Translations under genes and position numbers: made by a program
The notes under the pieces: generated by a model
Seen by the model: the letters and a program-made list of their open reading frames with translations, nothing else
The model's database searches: none
Told to the model about the DNA's origin: nothing
NCBI RefSeq assembly: GCF_020037125.1
Contig: NZ_JAIQDG010000036.1
Coordinates: 1-64,000 of the forward strand
DNA length: 64,000 bases
From: Myxococcus sp. RHSTA-1-4
GTDB lineage: Bacteria > Myxococcota > Myxococcia > Myxococcales > Myxococcaceae
Direction of reading: 5' to 3'
Part shown: positions 1-40,293 of the stretch, piece after piece
Position numbering within the stretch: position 1 is the stretch's first letter
How the letters are laid out: the number at the start of each line of letters is the position of its first letter

Positions 1-20606
<20,606 letters not shown>

Positions 20607-28516: not shown

Positions 28517-29095
28517 TCACGCCGCCCTCCTGGCCGTCATCTGCCGCTCGCGCGGGCCGGCGCGCTGGGGCCGGCGGACGTCGAGCGCGACGCGGAGCTC
28601 CTGGTAGGCGAAGCTCAGGCGGCGGCGCACGTTGACGGGCGTCAGGCCCAGCCGCTGGGCGATGTCCGGGCTGGCCAGGTCCTGCTCGAGACGCAGGACA
28701 CAGGGCCCCCGCAGGGGGGCGGGCAGGGCCTCGACATGCCGCATCAGCAATGAGGTCTGCTCGCGCTCCAGCAGCACCTGTTCGGGAGAGGGGGCTGGCG
28801 GTTTCAGGCCCGGGCCGGGCGCGTCTTCGTCCTGTTGGGACGCAACTGCGTTGCGGCGCCTCCACCGGATGAGGTCGGTGCACGCGTTGATGAGGATGCG
28901 CGCCAGCCAGGCCTCGACGTCCTTCAGCTGGTGCTGCTGCTCCTCGAAGGCGTCGAGCGCCCGGAGCATGGCCGTGCTCAACGCATCCTCCGCGTCGGCC
29001 CTATGTCCTCCCATGCGGTGCAAGCTCAGCTTGAAGAGCTTCGGGCGGTGATTCTGCCACACCTCCCAGAAGCGGGTCATCGTTGTCTCGTGCAT
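28517..29095 (-). CDS. ECF-type sigma factor
   Basis: A 192-residue sigma-70-family factor. Region 2 spans ~10-80 (RFWEVWQNHRPKLFKLSL, RADAEDALSTAMLRALDAF, VEAWLARILINACTDLIRW). A Pro-rich linker follows, and region 4 spans ~115-175 (LPAPLRGPCVLRLEQDL, SPDIAQRLGLTPVNVRRRLSFAYQEL) with a helix-turn-helix. The ATG at 29095 has GGGGA a few bases upstream; a longer in-frame start lacks it. No anti-sigma gene adjoins it, so control must come from elsewhere or from its C-terminal extension (~175-192, Arg-rich). It is convergent with the solute-binding pair and divergent from the GH88 gene. Confidence 0.85.
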   Translation of the reverse strand: MHETTMTRFWEVWQNHRPKLFKLSLHRMGGHRADAEDALSTAMLRALDAFEEQQHQLKDVEAWLARILINACTDLIRWRRRNAVASQQDEDAPGPGLKPPAPSPEQVLLEREQTSLLMRHVEALPAPLRGPCVLRLEQDLASPDIAQRLGLTPVNVRRRLSFAYQELRVALDVRRPQRAGPRERQMTARRAA

Positions 29096-35412: not shown

Positions 35413-35860
35413 GGCTTTCGTCTCCTGATGTGAGGGGCTCTCCGGTCCGCGGCACCTTCCGGCCCGTCGCCGCGGCACTGGCCCTTTCGAAAAAGAAGGA
35501 GCCCGGACGCGAAAATCGGCCACAGCCCCGCCTTTTCTCCGGGGCTCCTCGCCCCGGCTGTCCAGGTGTGAGGTCCATTCGCACCTGGGGCGTGTGGCCG
35601 AAAAGGGCCTCGTGACTCCTTCCCATGCGGCGGGGTACTCAATGAGGAGACATGGCTTGGTTCCACACTCCCGCACAGGCGTCTTCGAGGGGCTGTCCCG
35701 CCAGGGGCATCCCTACGCCCGGTCGCGAGCGGCCGCTGGCGGACGGGCACGCCTGCGGGTGTCCCGCTGGCCCCTGGAAGCGCCCGCGGGAGGGACTGCA
35801 CGCCGGTACCTCCGGAGACCGGGCACCGGGACGGGGTGGCGCGGGCGGGGAGGCGGTGCC
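35413..35860. promoter_or_regulatory. Divergent intergenic region upstream of the ECF operon
   Basis: 448 bases with no gene supported. A small hairpin (AGCCCCG / CGGGGCT, 35524-35546, loop CCTTTTCTC) is present. GAAAATCGGC at 35511-35520 resembles a segment upstream of dnaE (43248-43258). GGGGAGG at 35847-35853 supports the GTG at 35861. Promoters for both flanking genes must lie here but could not be pinned down. Confidence 0.45.
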
Positions 35861-36433
35861 GTGACGGAGGAGGAAGTCGCCGTCTGCATCCAGCGCGCGG
35901 CGCGGGGCGAGCAGGACGCGTGCCGTCAGCTCTACCAGCGCTTCCACGGCTCGGTGCGCCGCGTGGCGTTCGGCTTCTCGGGACTGGGGCCGGCCGAGGT
36001 GGAGGACGTCGTCCAGGAGACGTTCGCCCGGGCCTTCCGCGAGCTGCCCCGGTTGCAGCACCCGCGGGCCTTCAGCCGCTGGCTGGTGACCATTGCCCGC
36101 AACCACGCGCTGGCGCTCAGCCGTGGCGAGCGCGTGCGGGCCCTCGCCGCGGAGCACCTGTCGCGGGAGGTGGAGGACATCGCTCCCGCCGTGCCACCCT
36201 CGCTCGGGGTGGAGCGGCGGGTGGCCGTGGTGCGCGCGCTCATCGAGGAGCTGCCCGAGGGCCCCGAGAAGGAGACGGCCCGCCTGTTCTACCTGGAGGG
36301 TGAGCTGAGCGCGCGGGAGATCGCCGAACGCCTGGGGCTGGGCAAGAGCGCGGTGACGATGCGGCTGGAGCGCTTCCGGGCCCGGGTGAAGCGGGAGTTG
36401 CTGGCGCGGCTGCTGGCCGCGGAGGTGGAGTGA
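35861..36433 (+). CDS. ECF-type sigma factor, first gene of caspase operon
   Basis: A 190-residue ECF sigma factor. Region 2 spans ~10-85 (RQLYQRFHGSVRRVAFGFSG, EVEDVVQETFARAFRELPRL, FSRWLVTIARNHALALSR) and region 4 ~115-172 (IEELPEGPEKETARLFYLEG, SAREIAERLGLGKSAVTMRL). The GTG at 35861 has GGGGAGG seven bases upstream. The stop at 36431-36433 overlaps or abuts the next gene, which looks like its anti-sigma factor. The pair therefore forms a membrane-linked signalling module that probably controls the downstream caspase and lipoprotein genes and its own promoter. Confidence 0.9.
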   Translation: MTEEEVAVCIQRAARGEQDACRQLYQRFHGSVRRVAFGFSGLGPAEVEDVVQETFARAFRELPRLQHPRAFSRWLVTIARNHALALSRGERVRALAAEHLSREVEDIAPAVPPSLGVERRVAVVRALIEELPEGPEKETARLFYLEGELSAREIAERLGLGKSAVTMRLERFRARVKRELLARLLAAEVE

Positions 36434-36435
36434 CC

Positions 36436-37215
36436 ATGGCCGACACCGGCAGGCACCTGGACGCGGAAGGCTGGCGCGCGCTGCAAAGGAAGGAGCCGGA
36501 GGCGGTGGCGTACTTCGCCAGGCACCTCGCGGCTCCCTGCGACGTGTGTGAGGAGTTCCTCGCGGCGGAGCAGGAGGAGGACGCCCTCGGACTGGAGGCG
36601 CTGGCGGACGAGGCGCTCGGCGAGGCCGCGGGCCCCGCTCGTGAGGACGCGGTGGGCTGGGCGCGTCTGCGCCGCCGCCTGGGAGCGCCGAGGCGCGCCT
36701 GGCTGGCCGGGGCGGTGGCGGCGGCGGTCGCCGCGGGCCTCGCCGTCCTGGTGCTGCCCCAGGTGATGAGGACGGAGACCACGCCCTCGCAGCGCATCAA
36801 GGGCACCGTGCCGCTGGTGCTGGAGCTGGCGGCGATGGCGAAGCTGCCGAACGGCGAGACGCCTCCCGTGCGCGACGACACGGTGCTGCCGCCCGAGGCG
36901 GTGGTGCTGCTGCACTACCATTCCAGCGAGGCCGCCGACGCGCTGCTGCTGCGCGAAGCACCGGGGCTGCCCACGCAGGTGCTGGGCCGCTACGAGCTGG
37001 AGCCGGGAACGAACCCCCTGCGCGAGGGCGCGGACCTGGCCGGCGTCTCGCTCGAAGGCGAGCAGGGCCCCGTGACGCTGGTGCTGGTGGCCTGGCCGAA
37101 GGGCCCCGGTTCGCGGGAGGCCGTGGAGCAGGCGGCCGGGCAGGGGGCCGTCCCACCGGACGCGGTGCGGGCACGGCTGCACCTGCGCGTGGATCCGGGG
37201 CATGCTGCGCCCTGA
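36436..37215 (+). CDS. Putative membrane anti-sigma factor
   Basis: A 259-residue single-pass membrane protein. The cytoplasmic part (1-88) carries RHLAAPCDVCEEF, where H30, C35 and C38 resemble the zinc-binding anti-sigma motif (H-x3-C-x2-C in the canonical form, x4 here). One transmembrane helix follows (~89-110, WLAGAVAAAVAAGLAVLVL), then a periplasmic domain (~111-259) of mixed strands with no recognised family. Position directly after an ECF sigma gene supports the anti-sigma call. The start is ATG 36436; GTG 36430, overlapping the sigma stop, is an alternative. The 3' end overlaps the caspase gene by 14 bases. Confidence 0.75.
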   Translation: MADTGRHLDAEGWRALQRKEPEAVAYFARHLAAPCDVCEEFLAAEQEEDALGLEALADEALGEAAGPAREDAVGWARLRRRLGAPRRAWLAGAVAAAVAAGLAVLVLPQVMRTETTPSQRIKGTVPLVLELAAMAKLPNGETPPVRDDTVLPPEAVVLLHYHSSEAADALLLREAPGLPTQVLGRYELEPGTNPLREGADLAGVSLEGEQGPVTLVLVAWPKGPGSREAVEQAAGQGAVPPDAVRARLHLRVDPGHAAP

Positions 37216-38887
37216 GGAGGTCCGTCTGTCCCGCCTGCTGCTCATTCCGTTGATGCTCGGGGTCCTCGCCCTCTCCGCCTGCCGTACGGCGGAGTCGGGG
37301 GAGAAGGGCCGCGTCGTTCGTGTGCGGATGGAGGAGGAGGCGCTGGTCTCCGCGCAGGCGGGCGAGCGGCACGCGCTGCTCATCGGCATCCCGGAGTATG
37401 CGGACTCCGCCTGGAACCGGCTGCTCTACGCGGGCAAGGACGCGGAGGACCTGGGGCGCGTGCTGGCGGACCCGGTGCGCGGCGGCTTCAAGTCGGTGAC
37501 GGTGCTGGCCCGGCCGGAGCAGACGACACGCCAGTCGGTGCTGAACGCGCTGAAGGCGCTGGAGGCCCGGCCCTGGCGCCCGCAGGACGTGGTGGTCGTC
37601 TACGTCTCCGCCCACGGCACGCTGGCGCGTGACGAGACGGGCGAGCTGCAGCGCTACCTGGTGACGCACGACACCTCCTTCCGCGACGTGCCCGGCACCG
37701 GGCTGGAGATGGCCGCGCTGGAGCGGGCGTTGGAGCGGCTGGGCTCGCGCCGCCGCGTGCTGGTGCTCGCCACCTGTCACAGCGGCACCGGCAAGTCGCT
37801 GCTGCCTCCGGATGTGCGCCACGAGCTGGCGCGTACCAAGTCCGCCTTCGCGCCACGGCCATTGGAGGCCGCCAGCCGCGCGTCCATCGTCCTGTCCGCC
37901 AGCGACTGGGGCGAGGCCGCGCGCGAGGACGACGCGCTGGCCAACGACATCTACACGCACTTCCTCATCCAGGCGCTCGACGGCCGGGGAGACCGCAACC
38001 GGGACGGCGCGGTGAGCGCCACCGAGGCGCACGACTGGGCCCGCCGCCACACGTGGGCCTATACGAACGGGCGCCAGCGGCCGAGCGCGCAGATTCTGGA
38101 GGTGGGCGCGGACCCGGTGCTGCTCGCGGGCGCGCTGGAGCGGCCCGGCCAGCCCGAGGTCTTCTCCTACAGCGCGCGCCTGGAGGGCTTCACGCTCAAG
38201 GTGGACGGCCAGGCCGCGGGTGAGCTGCCCGGCGGCGTGGTGGTGCCGGAGGGCAAGCGCCGGCTGGAATTGCGCAAGGGCGGGCGGGTGCTGTGGGAGG
38301 ACACCGTGGCGCTGGAGGCGGGAGAGCGCCGGGAGCTGGAGTCGCTCGTGCGCCGCGCCTCGGAAGGGCCCCGGCGCACCGTGGCGCTGGAGGCGGGCGC
38401 GCTGGGGTTCCTCGACGCGCGCAGCCGCGAGCAGGTGCTGCCGGCCTCCGTGCTCGCGGGCGTGGGCCTGCGCCTGGACGGGGTGTTGCTGGAGCGGCGG
38501 CTGGACGTCTGGGTGGACGTGGCGGGCGGGCAGGGGCGGCAGTCACTCCAGCTGGAGCTGGGAGGTGTGGTGCCGGTGCGCCACCGCACGCTGCTGGTGG
38601 GCGCGGCGGTGGGGCCCACGTGGTGGTGGGGGCCCCTGGGCCTCTCCACCGGTCCGCGAGTGGCCGGTCTGTGGTTGCAGCGCTCCTTCCAGTTGGACCT
38701 GTTGAGCCGGGATGAACGCTACGTCACGGTGTGGCCCGGCTGGATGGCGGGTCTGTCCTGGCGCTTCAGTCCGGCGTTCGTCCTGGACGCGAAGGCGCAG
38801 TTGCTGTGGGCGTACGTGCCGGTGGACGGGCGGACGCGCATGGTGGGCTTCGGCGGCTTGATGCTGGGCGGAGGGTATCGGTTCTGA
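37202..38887 (+). CDS. Caspase-fold (peptidase C14) lipoprotein with PEGA-like and barrel-like regions
   Basis: A 561-residue protein. Lipobox LALSAC (C27) suggests a lipid anchor. Residues ~53-305 are a caspase/metacaspase domain: ERHALLIGIPEYAD, catalytic H138 in VYVSAHGT and catalytic C192 in LATCHSGTGKS. A canonical EF-hand loop lies at residues 264-275 (D264, N266, D268, G269, E275). Residues ~325-385 look like a PEGA domain (GFTLKVDGQAAGELPGGVVV). Residues ~395-561 are amphipathic strands ending in GGGYRF, like a small outer-membrane barrel. It probably cleaves after basic residues, as metacaspases do, in a calcium-dependent way (inference). It overlaps the anti-sigma gene, and its TGA shares an A with the next ATG. 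Confidence 0.85.
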   Translation: MLRPEEVRLSRLLLIPLMLGVLALSACRTAESGEKGRVVRVRMEEEALVSAQAGERHALLIGIPEYADSAWNRLLYAGKDAEDLGRVLADPVRGGFKSVTVLARPEQTTRQSVLNALKALEARPWRPQDVVVVYVSAHGTLARDETGELQRYLVTHDTSFRDVPGTGLEMAALERALERLGSRRRVLVLATCHSGTGKSLLPPDVRHELARTKSAFAPRPLEAASRASIVLSASDWGEAAREDDALANDIYTHFLIQALDGRGDRNRDGAVSATEAHDWARRHTWAYTNGRQRPSAQILEVGADPVLLAGALERPGQPEVFSYSARLEGFTLKVDGQAAGELPGGVVVPEGKRRLELRKGGRVLWEDTVALEAGERRELESLVRRASEGPRRTVALEAGALGFLDARSREQVLPASVLAGVGLRLDGVLLERRLDVWVDVAGGQGRQSLQLELGGVVPVRHRTLLVGAAVGPTWWWGPLGLSTGPRVAGLWLQRSFQLDLLSRDERYVTVWPGWMAGLSWRFSPAFVLDAKAQLLWAYVPVDGRTRMVGFGGLMLGGGYRF

Positions 38888-39489
38888 TGCGCACTCCAGG
38901 AAGCAGGATGGCCCTCGGGTTGCTGGGGCTGGCGGTGGCGGGCTGTGGCGGCTTCGAGAACGGGCCGCTGGGGTCCGGCACGGTGCGCGGGCGCATCGTC
39001 GACGCGGAGCCCGACGTGGCGATGGTGAGCGTGCTGGGCCGGCCCGAGCTGCGCGCCGGGGTGTCGCAGGACGGGCGCTTCGAGCTGGCCGGCGTGCCCG
39101 CCACCTCCGTGGAGCTGTTCGTGGTGGCCTCGCGCACGCGCGCGGTCCGCTCGGCGGTGGTGGCCCAGGGGGCCCGCATCGTCGACGTGGGCGACATCCA
39201 GGCGCCGCCGGGGGCCTTCATCACCGTGCGGGTGTCGGACGGCCAGGGCGGCGTGCCCTCCCGCGCCGAGGTGGAGGTGGACGGCACGGTGCTGGACGAA
39301 ATCGAGGTGGACGCGACGAGCGGAGAGGTGCGCGTGGGCCCGCTGCCCTCCGGCTGTTATGAGCTGAAGGTGGATGCGGACGAGGTGGACGAGGTGAAGG
39401 AGGACGTCTGCCTCCGGGAGGGCGAGGAGCTGGTGCGCTCCGTCATCCTCGTGCCCGATGGCGACGGTGGCGAGGACGACGACCCCTGA
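38887..39489 (+). CDS. Small lipoprotein with regulatory-like beta domain
   Basis: A 200-residue lipoprotein (lipobox VAGC, C20). Residues ~30-100 have the look of a carboxypeptidase-regulatory-like beta domain (GTVRGRIVDAEPD, RFELAGVPATSVELFVV). A second strand-rich stretch follows (AFITVRVSDGQGGVPSRAEV), and the tail is acidic (DGDGGEDDDP). Its start overlaps the caspase stop (TGATG), so it belongs to the same operon. It might be an adaptor or substrate of the caspase protein in the envelope; this is inferred from position only. Confidence 0.7.
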   Translation: MRTPGSRMALGLLGLAVAGCGGFENGPLGSGTVRGRIVDAEPDVAMVSVLGRPELRAGVSQDGRFELAGVPATSVELFVVASRTRAVRSAVVAQGARIVDVGDIQAPPGAFITVRVSDGQGGVPSRAEVEVDGTVLDEIEVDATSGEVRVGPLPSGCYELKVDADEVDEVKEDVCLREGEELVRSVILVPDGDGGEDDDP

Positions 39490-39492
39490 GCG

Positions 39493-40293
39493 TCACCGGC
39501 CTCCGCGCGCGGCCAGGTCGATGAAGCCGCGAATCCAGATGAGGTTCACCGCGTGGCACCTGGCCAGCGGCGTGGGTGTGGTCGTCTCCAGCGTCGCCGT
39601 GTAGGGCACGCCCTGGCGCATGTACCAGTCGGTGACGCTGCCGTCGTGGTACTCGATGAGGCCGTCCGCGTCCGTGACGTTGTGCTCGTCCACCTTCTGG
39701 TTGCGCACCACGGTGACGTGGCGGGCGCTTGCGTCCACCAGGGGGCGGTAGGCGGCCTTGTCCCCGAAGGTGTACGCGTAGGTCGCCTCGCCGCCCAGGT
39801 AGTTGTCCTGGTGGAGGTCGAGCGCGGCCGCGGGGGGCGGGAAGCGCGCCAGGTCCCCGCGCACGGCGCGCGTCTCCCTGGGCCCCCCGTCGTACAGCAC
39901 CCAGCGGAGGATGGGCTGCGGGCGGCTCAGCTCGCCCTTCCACTCGCCCGGCGCCACCTCGTAGCGGAGGAAGTCGTTGTTGGGTTTCTCTCCGCCGCGG
40001 TTGTAGCGGGTGCCGTCCTCGAAGCCGGAGGGGTTGATGCAGGGATAGACGCGCAGGCCCACGCCGCGCTCGCGGGCGTAGGCCACCACCTCCGGGAAGT
40101 GCTCGGCCAGCGTCAGCGGGCCGGCGGGCTCCTCTCCGTGGAAGCCGGAGGTGATGACCAGCCAACGCTCTCCGGGGACGATGAGCCGGAAGAGCGGGTA
40201 TTCCTGGCCACCCTCGGTGACGCGGCCGTATTCGGCCACCTCCGCGAGTGTCGTGAAGGAGCGGATGCGCTGGGCGTAGTCGGTGTAATTCAC
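39493..40293 (-). CDS. M14-family zinc carboxypeptidase-like protein
   Basis: A 266-residue cytoplasmic protein of the M14 fold (zinc carboxypeptidases and succinylglutamate desuccinylase/aspartoacylase relatives). Zinc ligands are H52 and E55 in GFHGEEPAG and H161 in LDLHQDN. Substrate-carboxylate binding is suggested by NPSGFEDGTRYNRG, and the general base is E236 in TATLETTTP. There is no signal peptide. It should hydrolyse a C-terminal peptide bond or an amide; the exact substrate is open. The start is GTG 40293. It is convergent with the caspase operon, with only three bases between stops. Confidence 0.8.
   Translation of the reverse strand: MNYTDYAQRIRSFTTLAEVAEYGRVTEGGQEYPLFRLIVPGERWLVITSGFHGEEPAGPLTLAEHFPEVVAYARERGVGLRVYPCINPSGFEDGTRYNRGGEKPNNDFLRYEVAPGEWKGELSRPQPILRWVLYDGGPRETRAVRGDLARFPPPAAALDLHQDNYLGGEATYAYTFGDKAAYRPLVDASARHVTVVRNQKVDEHNVTDADGLIEYHDGSVTDWYMRQGVPYTATLETTTPTPLARCHAVNLIWIRGFIDLAARGGR

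Follow-up and report, generated by a model that had tools for sequence, protein, structure and literature searches.

A Myxococcus operon pairing an ECF sigma factor and a membrane anti-sigma factor with a predicted outer-membrane caspase and a lipoprotein, with conserved lysines at two candidate cleavage sites

A stretch of 64,000 nucleotides from Myxococcus sp. RHSTA-1-4 (NCBI RefSeq assembly GCF_020037125.1; contig NZ_JAIQDG010000036.1, positions 1 to 64,000, forward strand), here called the window, carries a four-gene operon for an extracytoplasmic function (ECF) sigma factor, an anti-sigma factor with one transmembrane (TM) segment, a lipidated caspase, and a lipoprotein. Its module is real, conserved, and partly known, and represents a variant of ECF signalling under anti-sigma control that includes a predicted outer-membrane caspase of its own. 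By sequence comparison, the window operon is one copy of a myxobacterial module that is widespread across Myxococcota and in which the lipoproteins are swapped. We rate at about even the prospect that the operon encodes its site-1 protease in the caspase, which would cut itself at Lys213, cut the anti-sigma factor at Lys122, and free the sigma factor. Most bacterial caspases have no assigned role, and discussion of them often stops at whether they are remnants or precursors of programmed cell death; in the genome studied, over half of the caspases are linked to sigma/anti-sigma pairs, for which exact residues (Lys122 and Lys213) can be named.

Operon layout and conservation

The four genes lie on the + strand (35861-39489) and overlap or abut, with the anti-sigma gene starting 2 nt past the sigma gene end, 14 nt shared by the caspase and anti-sigma genes, and 1 nt shared by the lipoprotein gene and the caspase stop. 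A divergent gene upstream and a convergent gene (39493-40293, − strand) at the 3′ end make the four genes a self-contained, closed unit. Profile matches, lipoboxes, and the single TM segment bear out the first-pass annotation, which had proposed overlapping or abutting sigma, anti-sigma, caspase, and lipoprotein genes at these positions.

35861..36433, + strand: ECF sigma factor, 190 amino acids (aa), GTG start (PF04542, TIGR02937; start conserved in orthologs)
36436..37215, + strand: membrane anti-sigma factor, 259 aa, with a zinc-finger-like N terminus, one TM segment, and an immunoglobulin (Ig)-like periplasmic domain (position, motif, TM segment, AlphaFold2 [AF2] model)
37202..38887, + strand: lipidated caspase, 561 aa, with a PEGA-like domain and a C-terminal outer-membrane beta-barrel (PF00656, AF2 model, fold matches)
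38887..39489, + strand: lipoprotein, 200 aa, with CarboxypepD_reg-type beta domains (PF13620, E value 1.2e-7; ortholog in 31/31 close loci)

All four genes were found in order at 31/31 ortholog and paralog loci (51 to 100% caspase identity; tblastn with the four proteins). The first-pass annotation had named a gene order not conserved in relatives as grounds for rejecting the link; the order is conserved, and this conservation indicates that the four genes very probably function together. The genus has two paralogous operons, A (the window operon; caspase identity, 73 to 88%; present in 15/27 genus genomes) and B (51 to 54%; 27/27). Farther out in the order, families retain the sigma gene, most of them together with the genes for the anti-sigma factor and the lipoprotein. 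Within the single named collection that was scanned, a sigma gene lay upstream in 66/73 caspase-relative loci; of the remaining seven, five were truncated where the locus or contig ends, and the upstream genes were unrelated in two (L125 and L146). Family members were present in 99/195 Myxococcota genomes, and paralog-type caspases in 119/146 Myxococcota genomes sampled.

The window's genome has 14 caspase genes (13 by PF00656, plus C90), 8 of which stand directly behind a same-strand ECF sigma gene (the window, C73, C75, C90, C68:442 kb, C89, C59, and C68:93 kb). With 53 sigma-70 region-2 genes in 11.24 Mb, the chance of a same-strand sigma gene ≤2.5 kb upstream is ~0.6% per gene, giving an expectation of ~0.08 such neighbourhoods among the 14 caspases versus 8 observed, far above what chance would give. 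In the own-genome paralog modules, the caspase gene is always followed by a lipoprotein gene, of differing kinds; the window lipoprotein has the lipobox VAGC.

Three further observations concern the distribution of the module. Both myxobacterial operons also occur (74% and 53% identity) in an assembly labelled "Comamonas sp. KCTC 72670" (L081 and L091; BNCN01 records), which is probably a mislabelled Myxococcus genome. Operon B (L038, L090-L118) adjoins a divergent gene, start MRVINFNPGPAALPLAAL, in all Myxococcus-type loci aligned, and we take this gene to be serC. Locus L075 (G000:C79, local 4253-8163, − strand) holds a caspase with a repeat-rich C terminus and an upstream DUF4384 protein without a zinc motif, and is possibly a sigma-less derivative of the module.

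Encoded proteins

The sigma protein matched PF04542 (E value 3e-13) and TIGR02937 (72 bits), both over the cut-offs. It consists of sigma regions 2 and 4 only within ~190 aa, as in ECF (group IV) factors; the region 4 match is weak and correctly placed. Another sigma-70 region-2 gene of the window lies ~7 kb upstream of the operon (28853-29056, − strand).

The caspase was matched by PF00656 (E value 1.7e-9) and modelled with AF2 from 54 relatives (mean predicted local distance difference test [pLDDT] score, 83.3).

37280..37282, + strand: lipobox Cys27 (LSAC; Cys in 39/40 aligned orthologs having the position)
37613..37615, + strand: catalytic His138
37775..37777, + strand: catalytic Cys192 (ATCHSG)
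38156..38359, + strand: PEGA-like domain, residues ~319-386 (weak PF08308 match, E value 0.03; beta-rich, well predicted)
38372..38881, + strand: 8-stranded beta-barrel, residues 391-560, with a C-terminal GGYRF like a beta-barrel assembly machinery (BAM) signal (AF2, Foldseek)

A sequence search of PDB with the caspase gave no match, and a fold search was needed. Residues 53-313 (p20 plus p10) aligned with MALT1 and caspases over ~200 residues (Foldseek and VIA-align; Z score, 22 to 23; root mean square deviation, 2.2 to 3.6 Å), and the caspase-hemoglobinase fold with its His-Cys dyad places the protein in the caspase family (C14). The His and Cys that the first-pass annotation called intact are His138 and Cys192, both invariant in 54 sequences. 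Residues 391-560 matched OmpA, Ail, NspA, and OmpX (Foldseek E values, 2e-9 to 2e-7; OmpA barrel, 2e-9); eight antiparallel strands, from 391-403 to 544-560, close the barrel in the AF2 model, and the C-terminal GYRF is conserved. Given the matches to OmpA, OmpX, and NspA, OmpA topology would have the caspase side face the periplasm, and the model most likely represents an outer-membrane barrel with a periplasmic protease domain, also lipidated at Cys27. The PEGA-like domain, the OmpA/OmpX-like barrel, and the phylum-wide repetition of the module go beyond the earlier annotation.

Two other assignments of the caspase were rejected. It scored 91.2 bits against the curated cut-off of 140 for EACC1-associated caspases (NF047832), and PADLOC gave only a generic caspase match for a role in phage defence or CRISPR. 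No type III-E CRISPR CASP parts (Cas7-11, csx30, csx31, or a CRISPR RNA array) were found in the four genes or the adjoining open reading frames scanned; unlike the CASP protease, the window caspase has a secretion signal and a barrel. From the catalytic Cys onward, the nearly invariant CHSGxGKS (37775-37798) resembles a P-loop core (GxGKS) within a disordered loop, and Lys198 of this motif may serve as another processing site or as a ligand site. Contigs of several Corallococcus assemblies (L084, L085, and L086) end at the same spot of the operon A caspase, residue 423 in the barrel, which suggests hard-to-assemble sequence.

The window anti-sigma factor had no Pfam match in the profile search, and its role (binding and inhibiting the sigma factor) is presumed from gene order and architecture. 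In its AF2 model (pLDDT, 81.5), a helical N terminus and a TM helix lead into a disordered segment (107-120), after which comes an Ig-like beta-sandwich (~123-257).

36523..36549, + strand: zinc-binding motif H30-LAAP-C35-DV-C38 (H30, C35, and C38 each kept in 41/42 sequences)
36700..36756, + strand: TM segment, residues 89-107 (hydropathy window, 2.35 at residue 89)

The H-C-C motif of the first-pass annotation is present, spaced H-x4-C-x2-C in the window protein and its orthologs and not as the H-x3-C-x2-C that defines class I of the zinc-binding anti-sigma (ZAS) factors; this canonical motif with one TM segment is found in own-genome paralogs (five with the canonical motif). Paralogous anti-sigma proteins match zf-HC2 and DUF4384 (PF14326); the DUF4384 matches of L052 (E value 4e-5) and L051 (0.002) were under the cut-off, which L052 reaches in the genome search. 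In this genome, DUF4384 matches (E value <1) were confined to genes that immediately precede a caspase gene, and DUF4384 also occurs fused to orthocaspases (PMC7475262, PMC6426788). A fold search with the periplasmic part returned just generic Ig-like sandwiches (Foldseek E values above 0.001; Z score up to 9), and for this reason we claim no family for it.

Candidate cleavage sites

Conserved lysines followed by small residues mark two candidate sites, one in each of the paired proteins, and a further Lys-Gly lies next to the lipid anchor of the caspase.

36799..36804, + strand: Lys122-Gly123 in the anti-sigma factor, where site-1 cleavage (K|G) is predicted, between the TM segment and the Ig-like domain (conservation, AF2)
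37838..37840, + strand: Lys213 in the inter-subunit loop of the caspase, predicted self-processing site (K|S/G/A) (conservation, AF2)
37304..37309, + strand: Lys35-Gly36 of the caspase, another conserved K-G, located in the disordered tether that follows the lipid anchor (conservation, AF2)

Lys122 is conserved in 42/42 anti-sigma sequences and Gly123 in 41/42, and only the columns of Lys122 and Gly191 are invariant in this set, which reaches down to 20% identity. The pair lies ~15 residues past the TM segment, where the disordered linker meets the folded domain. Lys213, 21 residues after Cys192, is conserved in 54/54 caspases and followed by G, S, or A in 53/54; its loop (208-225) has pLDDT under 50. 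In metazoan caspases, the inter-subunit linker is cut at the position corresponding to this loop. Lys35 is kept in 45/46 sequences and Gly36 in 44/45, within residues 28-40 of pLDDT under 50.

A basic residue with a small residue after it was found at both sites in 182 operons of both kinds, with P1 pairs (caspase loop/anti-sigma linker) of K/K in 175, R/R in 4, K/R in 2, and R/K in 1; a K-G within 30 residues is expected in 6.5% of shuffled sequences. The R/R cases form one orthogroup (L078, L248, L296, and L299; L078 type) with -RG- at both sites. Paralogs mostly have R-x-K-G at both, operon A has RTKS/RIKG, and operon B mostly GIKS/GVKG. Overall, the P4-P2 residues of the two sites matched significantly in a permutation test (p 0.0002-0.003) that left out doubtful or wrong automatic picks of the anti-sigma site (e.g., L125, L134, and L147). 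Four other own-genome caspases that have no anti-sigma neighbour (L053, L071, L072, and L073) lack a loop K-G; L053 has R-G. Orthocaspases cleave after Arg or Lys, and MaOC1 processes itself at Arg219 (PMC7475262, PMC6426788), which fits cuts at the loop lysine and at the juxtamembrane Lys-Gly. The regulated-proteolysis circuit envisaged in the first-pass annotation thus gains a concrete candidate site in Lys122-Gly123; that the caspase would cut the anti-sigma factor there is about as probable as that it would not.

Upstream promoter element

35613..35639, + strand: putative ECF-type promoter, TGACTCCTTCC-N11-GTACT, predicted autoregulation (upstream conservation)

This element is the most conserved upstream block among 12 operon A orthologs (spacing, 10 to 11). 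The pattern TGACTCCT-N13-15-GTACT had a single exact match in the 11.2-Mb genome, the element itself, and a control pattern had 0. A search for a wider regulon by promoter match was therefore abandoned, as a strict motif present once per genome permits no statement on other targets. The region upstream of operon B is conserved, but unlike that of operon A.

Proposed mechanism and alternatives

From the operon, the fold, and the invariant dyad and lysines, we infer the following steps of cleavage, sensing, and autoregulation. The anti-sigma factor, whose Ig-like domain would project into the periplasm, would tether the sigma factor to the inner membrane; in the outer membrane, lipid and barrel would hold the caspase so that its protease domain also faces the periplasm. 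A signal from the surface or envelope may be sensed by the barrel, perhaps together with the lipoprotein; barrel and interchangeable lipoproteins alike would be natural sensor candidates. The caspase zymogen would then cut its own loop after Lys213 and, once matured, act as the site-1 protease that cuts the anti-sigma factor after Lys122. General proteases (site-2 and cytosolic) would remove the membrane-bound remnant. Once released, the sigma factor would transcribe its own operon from the element at 35613-35639, and possibly a wider regulon. The fuller proposal, an outer-membrane caspase that serves as a dedicated site-1 protease, matures itself at the loop lysine, and works in many parallel circuits, each with its own surface lipoprotein, is one we put forward tentatively, at somewhat below even. 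If it is true, many bacterial caspases signal rather than kill, a caspase joins the proteases that initiate regulated intramembrane proteolysis, and multicellular predatory bacteria have a signal route from the outer membrane to transcription.

Several points weigh against cuts at these two lysines. Within clades, the P4-P2 match of true versus shuffled pairs was not significant (p 0.05-0.16; P3, p 0.12-0.46); with significance between clades only, shared descent may explain the match, and we claim it only at the clade level. The P-type caspase L077 has a loop K-G yet no anti-sigma neighbour, and the L075 caspase has no sigma gene beside it, although a one-TM DUF4384 protein containing ERIKG is encoded upstream. 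A second invariant lysine, Lys198 (SGxGKS), also lies in the disordered loop, so that invariance there is no proof of processing. Homology among the anti-sigma factors leaves room for a structural reading of the Lys-Gly as the beginning of the Ig-like domain: the pair would be a fixed entry to the first Ig-like strand, Lys213 would serve folding or activation uncut, and any caspase feedback would be indirect or by binding. The start of the Ig-like fold at about residue 123 and the nonsignificant co-matching within clades are in keeping with such a structural role. Lys122, however, edges the stretch 107-120 and Lys213 lies inside 208-225, both of pLDDT under 50 and hence of weak structural constraint, and neither a basic-small pair at both sites nor the joint Arg-Gly of one orthogroup is expected from structure alone; we consider this explanation quite improbable.

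The caspase and lipoprotein could instead be merely regulated products of a sigma/anti-sigma pair that senses otherwise, through the zinc finger, the Ig domain, or a site-1 protease of the general kind; the caspase would then act on other envelope proteins, e.g., in lysis during development or predation. Target genes beside ECF sigma genes are common, as is known for the family; the conserved ECF-like promoter before the operon is matched exactly nowhere else in the genome, so that the main target may be the operon itself; and the main text of a 2012 survey suggests developmental autolysis for these metacaspases (PMC3501461). Left unexplained are the conservation of Lys122, which equals or exceeds that of the zinc ligands, the occurrence of DUF4384-type domains solely beside caspases in this genome, and the changes of lipoprotein while caspase and anti-sigma factor stay paired. 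We hold such an output role to be rather unlikely.

Comparison with known systems

As established for sigma-E of Escherichia coli (RseA/DegS/RseP), a one-TM anti-sigma factor is cut periplasmically near the membrane upon an outer-membrane signal, much as proposed here for the caspase; the site-1 protease of that system, however, is an inner-membrane PDZ serine protease encoded outside the sigma operon, without a barrel fusion. FecI/FecR/FecA likewise has an outer-membrane barrel, encoded with the sigma and anti-sigma factors, that reports a surface signal, but FecA is a 22-stranded TonB-dependent receptor without a protease, whereas the barrel of the module is 8-stranded and carries a caspase.

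A parallel in protease action is Csx29, a caspase-like protease that, in a CRISPR setting, cuts the inhibitor of an ECF sigma factor and so lifts its inhibition (PMC10028731). This Csx29/Csx30/CASP-sigma system shares with our proposal the freeing of an ECF sigma factor by a caspase-like protease; it differs in being cytoplasmic and activated by RNA through Cas7-11, with a TPR-CHAT protease and without a membrane anti-sigma factor, barrel, or lipoprotein. ECF54 resembles the module in having an ECF sigma gene near a caspase-like protease gene (CHAT, subtilase, and carboxypeptidase neighbourhoods), but it is without an anti-sigma factor, and direct proteolysis of the sigma factor has been proposed (PMC8999054), whereas the module has a conserved membrane anti-sigma factor. 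Orthocaspases of the MaOC1 type share the bacterial caspase fold, the His-Cys dyad, a P1 Arg or Lys, and self-processing (PMC7475262), cleavage being a prediction from sequence in the module; in the portions of that literature consulted, they are described with neither an outer-membrane barrel nor a sigma/anti-sigma linkage.

According to its main text, the 2012 survey placed 4/5 Myxococcus xanthus metacaspases in sigma-70 operons and listed sigma/metacaspase operons in Anaeromyxobacter, Haliangium, Sorangium, Ralstonia, and Fibrobacter as well (PMC3501461). The window operon, a predicted operon with a metacaspase and a sigma-70 factor as in that account, is very probably a further member of the set. 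It shares the sigma-caspase link, and the survey's main-text account does not mention an anti-sigma factor, barrel, lipoprotein, or Lys-Gly sites. With this survey (2012; main text) and the Csx29 work (2022), the statement of the first-pass annotation that no system of this composition had been described was too strong. In the literature searched, mostly without subscription papers, we found no description of the anti-sigma partner, barrel, lipoprotein, or lysine sites of the myxobacterial operons. The link of sigma factor and metacaspase was already known; what is new here is the conservation of Lys122 in the anti-sigma partner and of Lys213 in the caspase loop.

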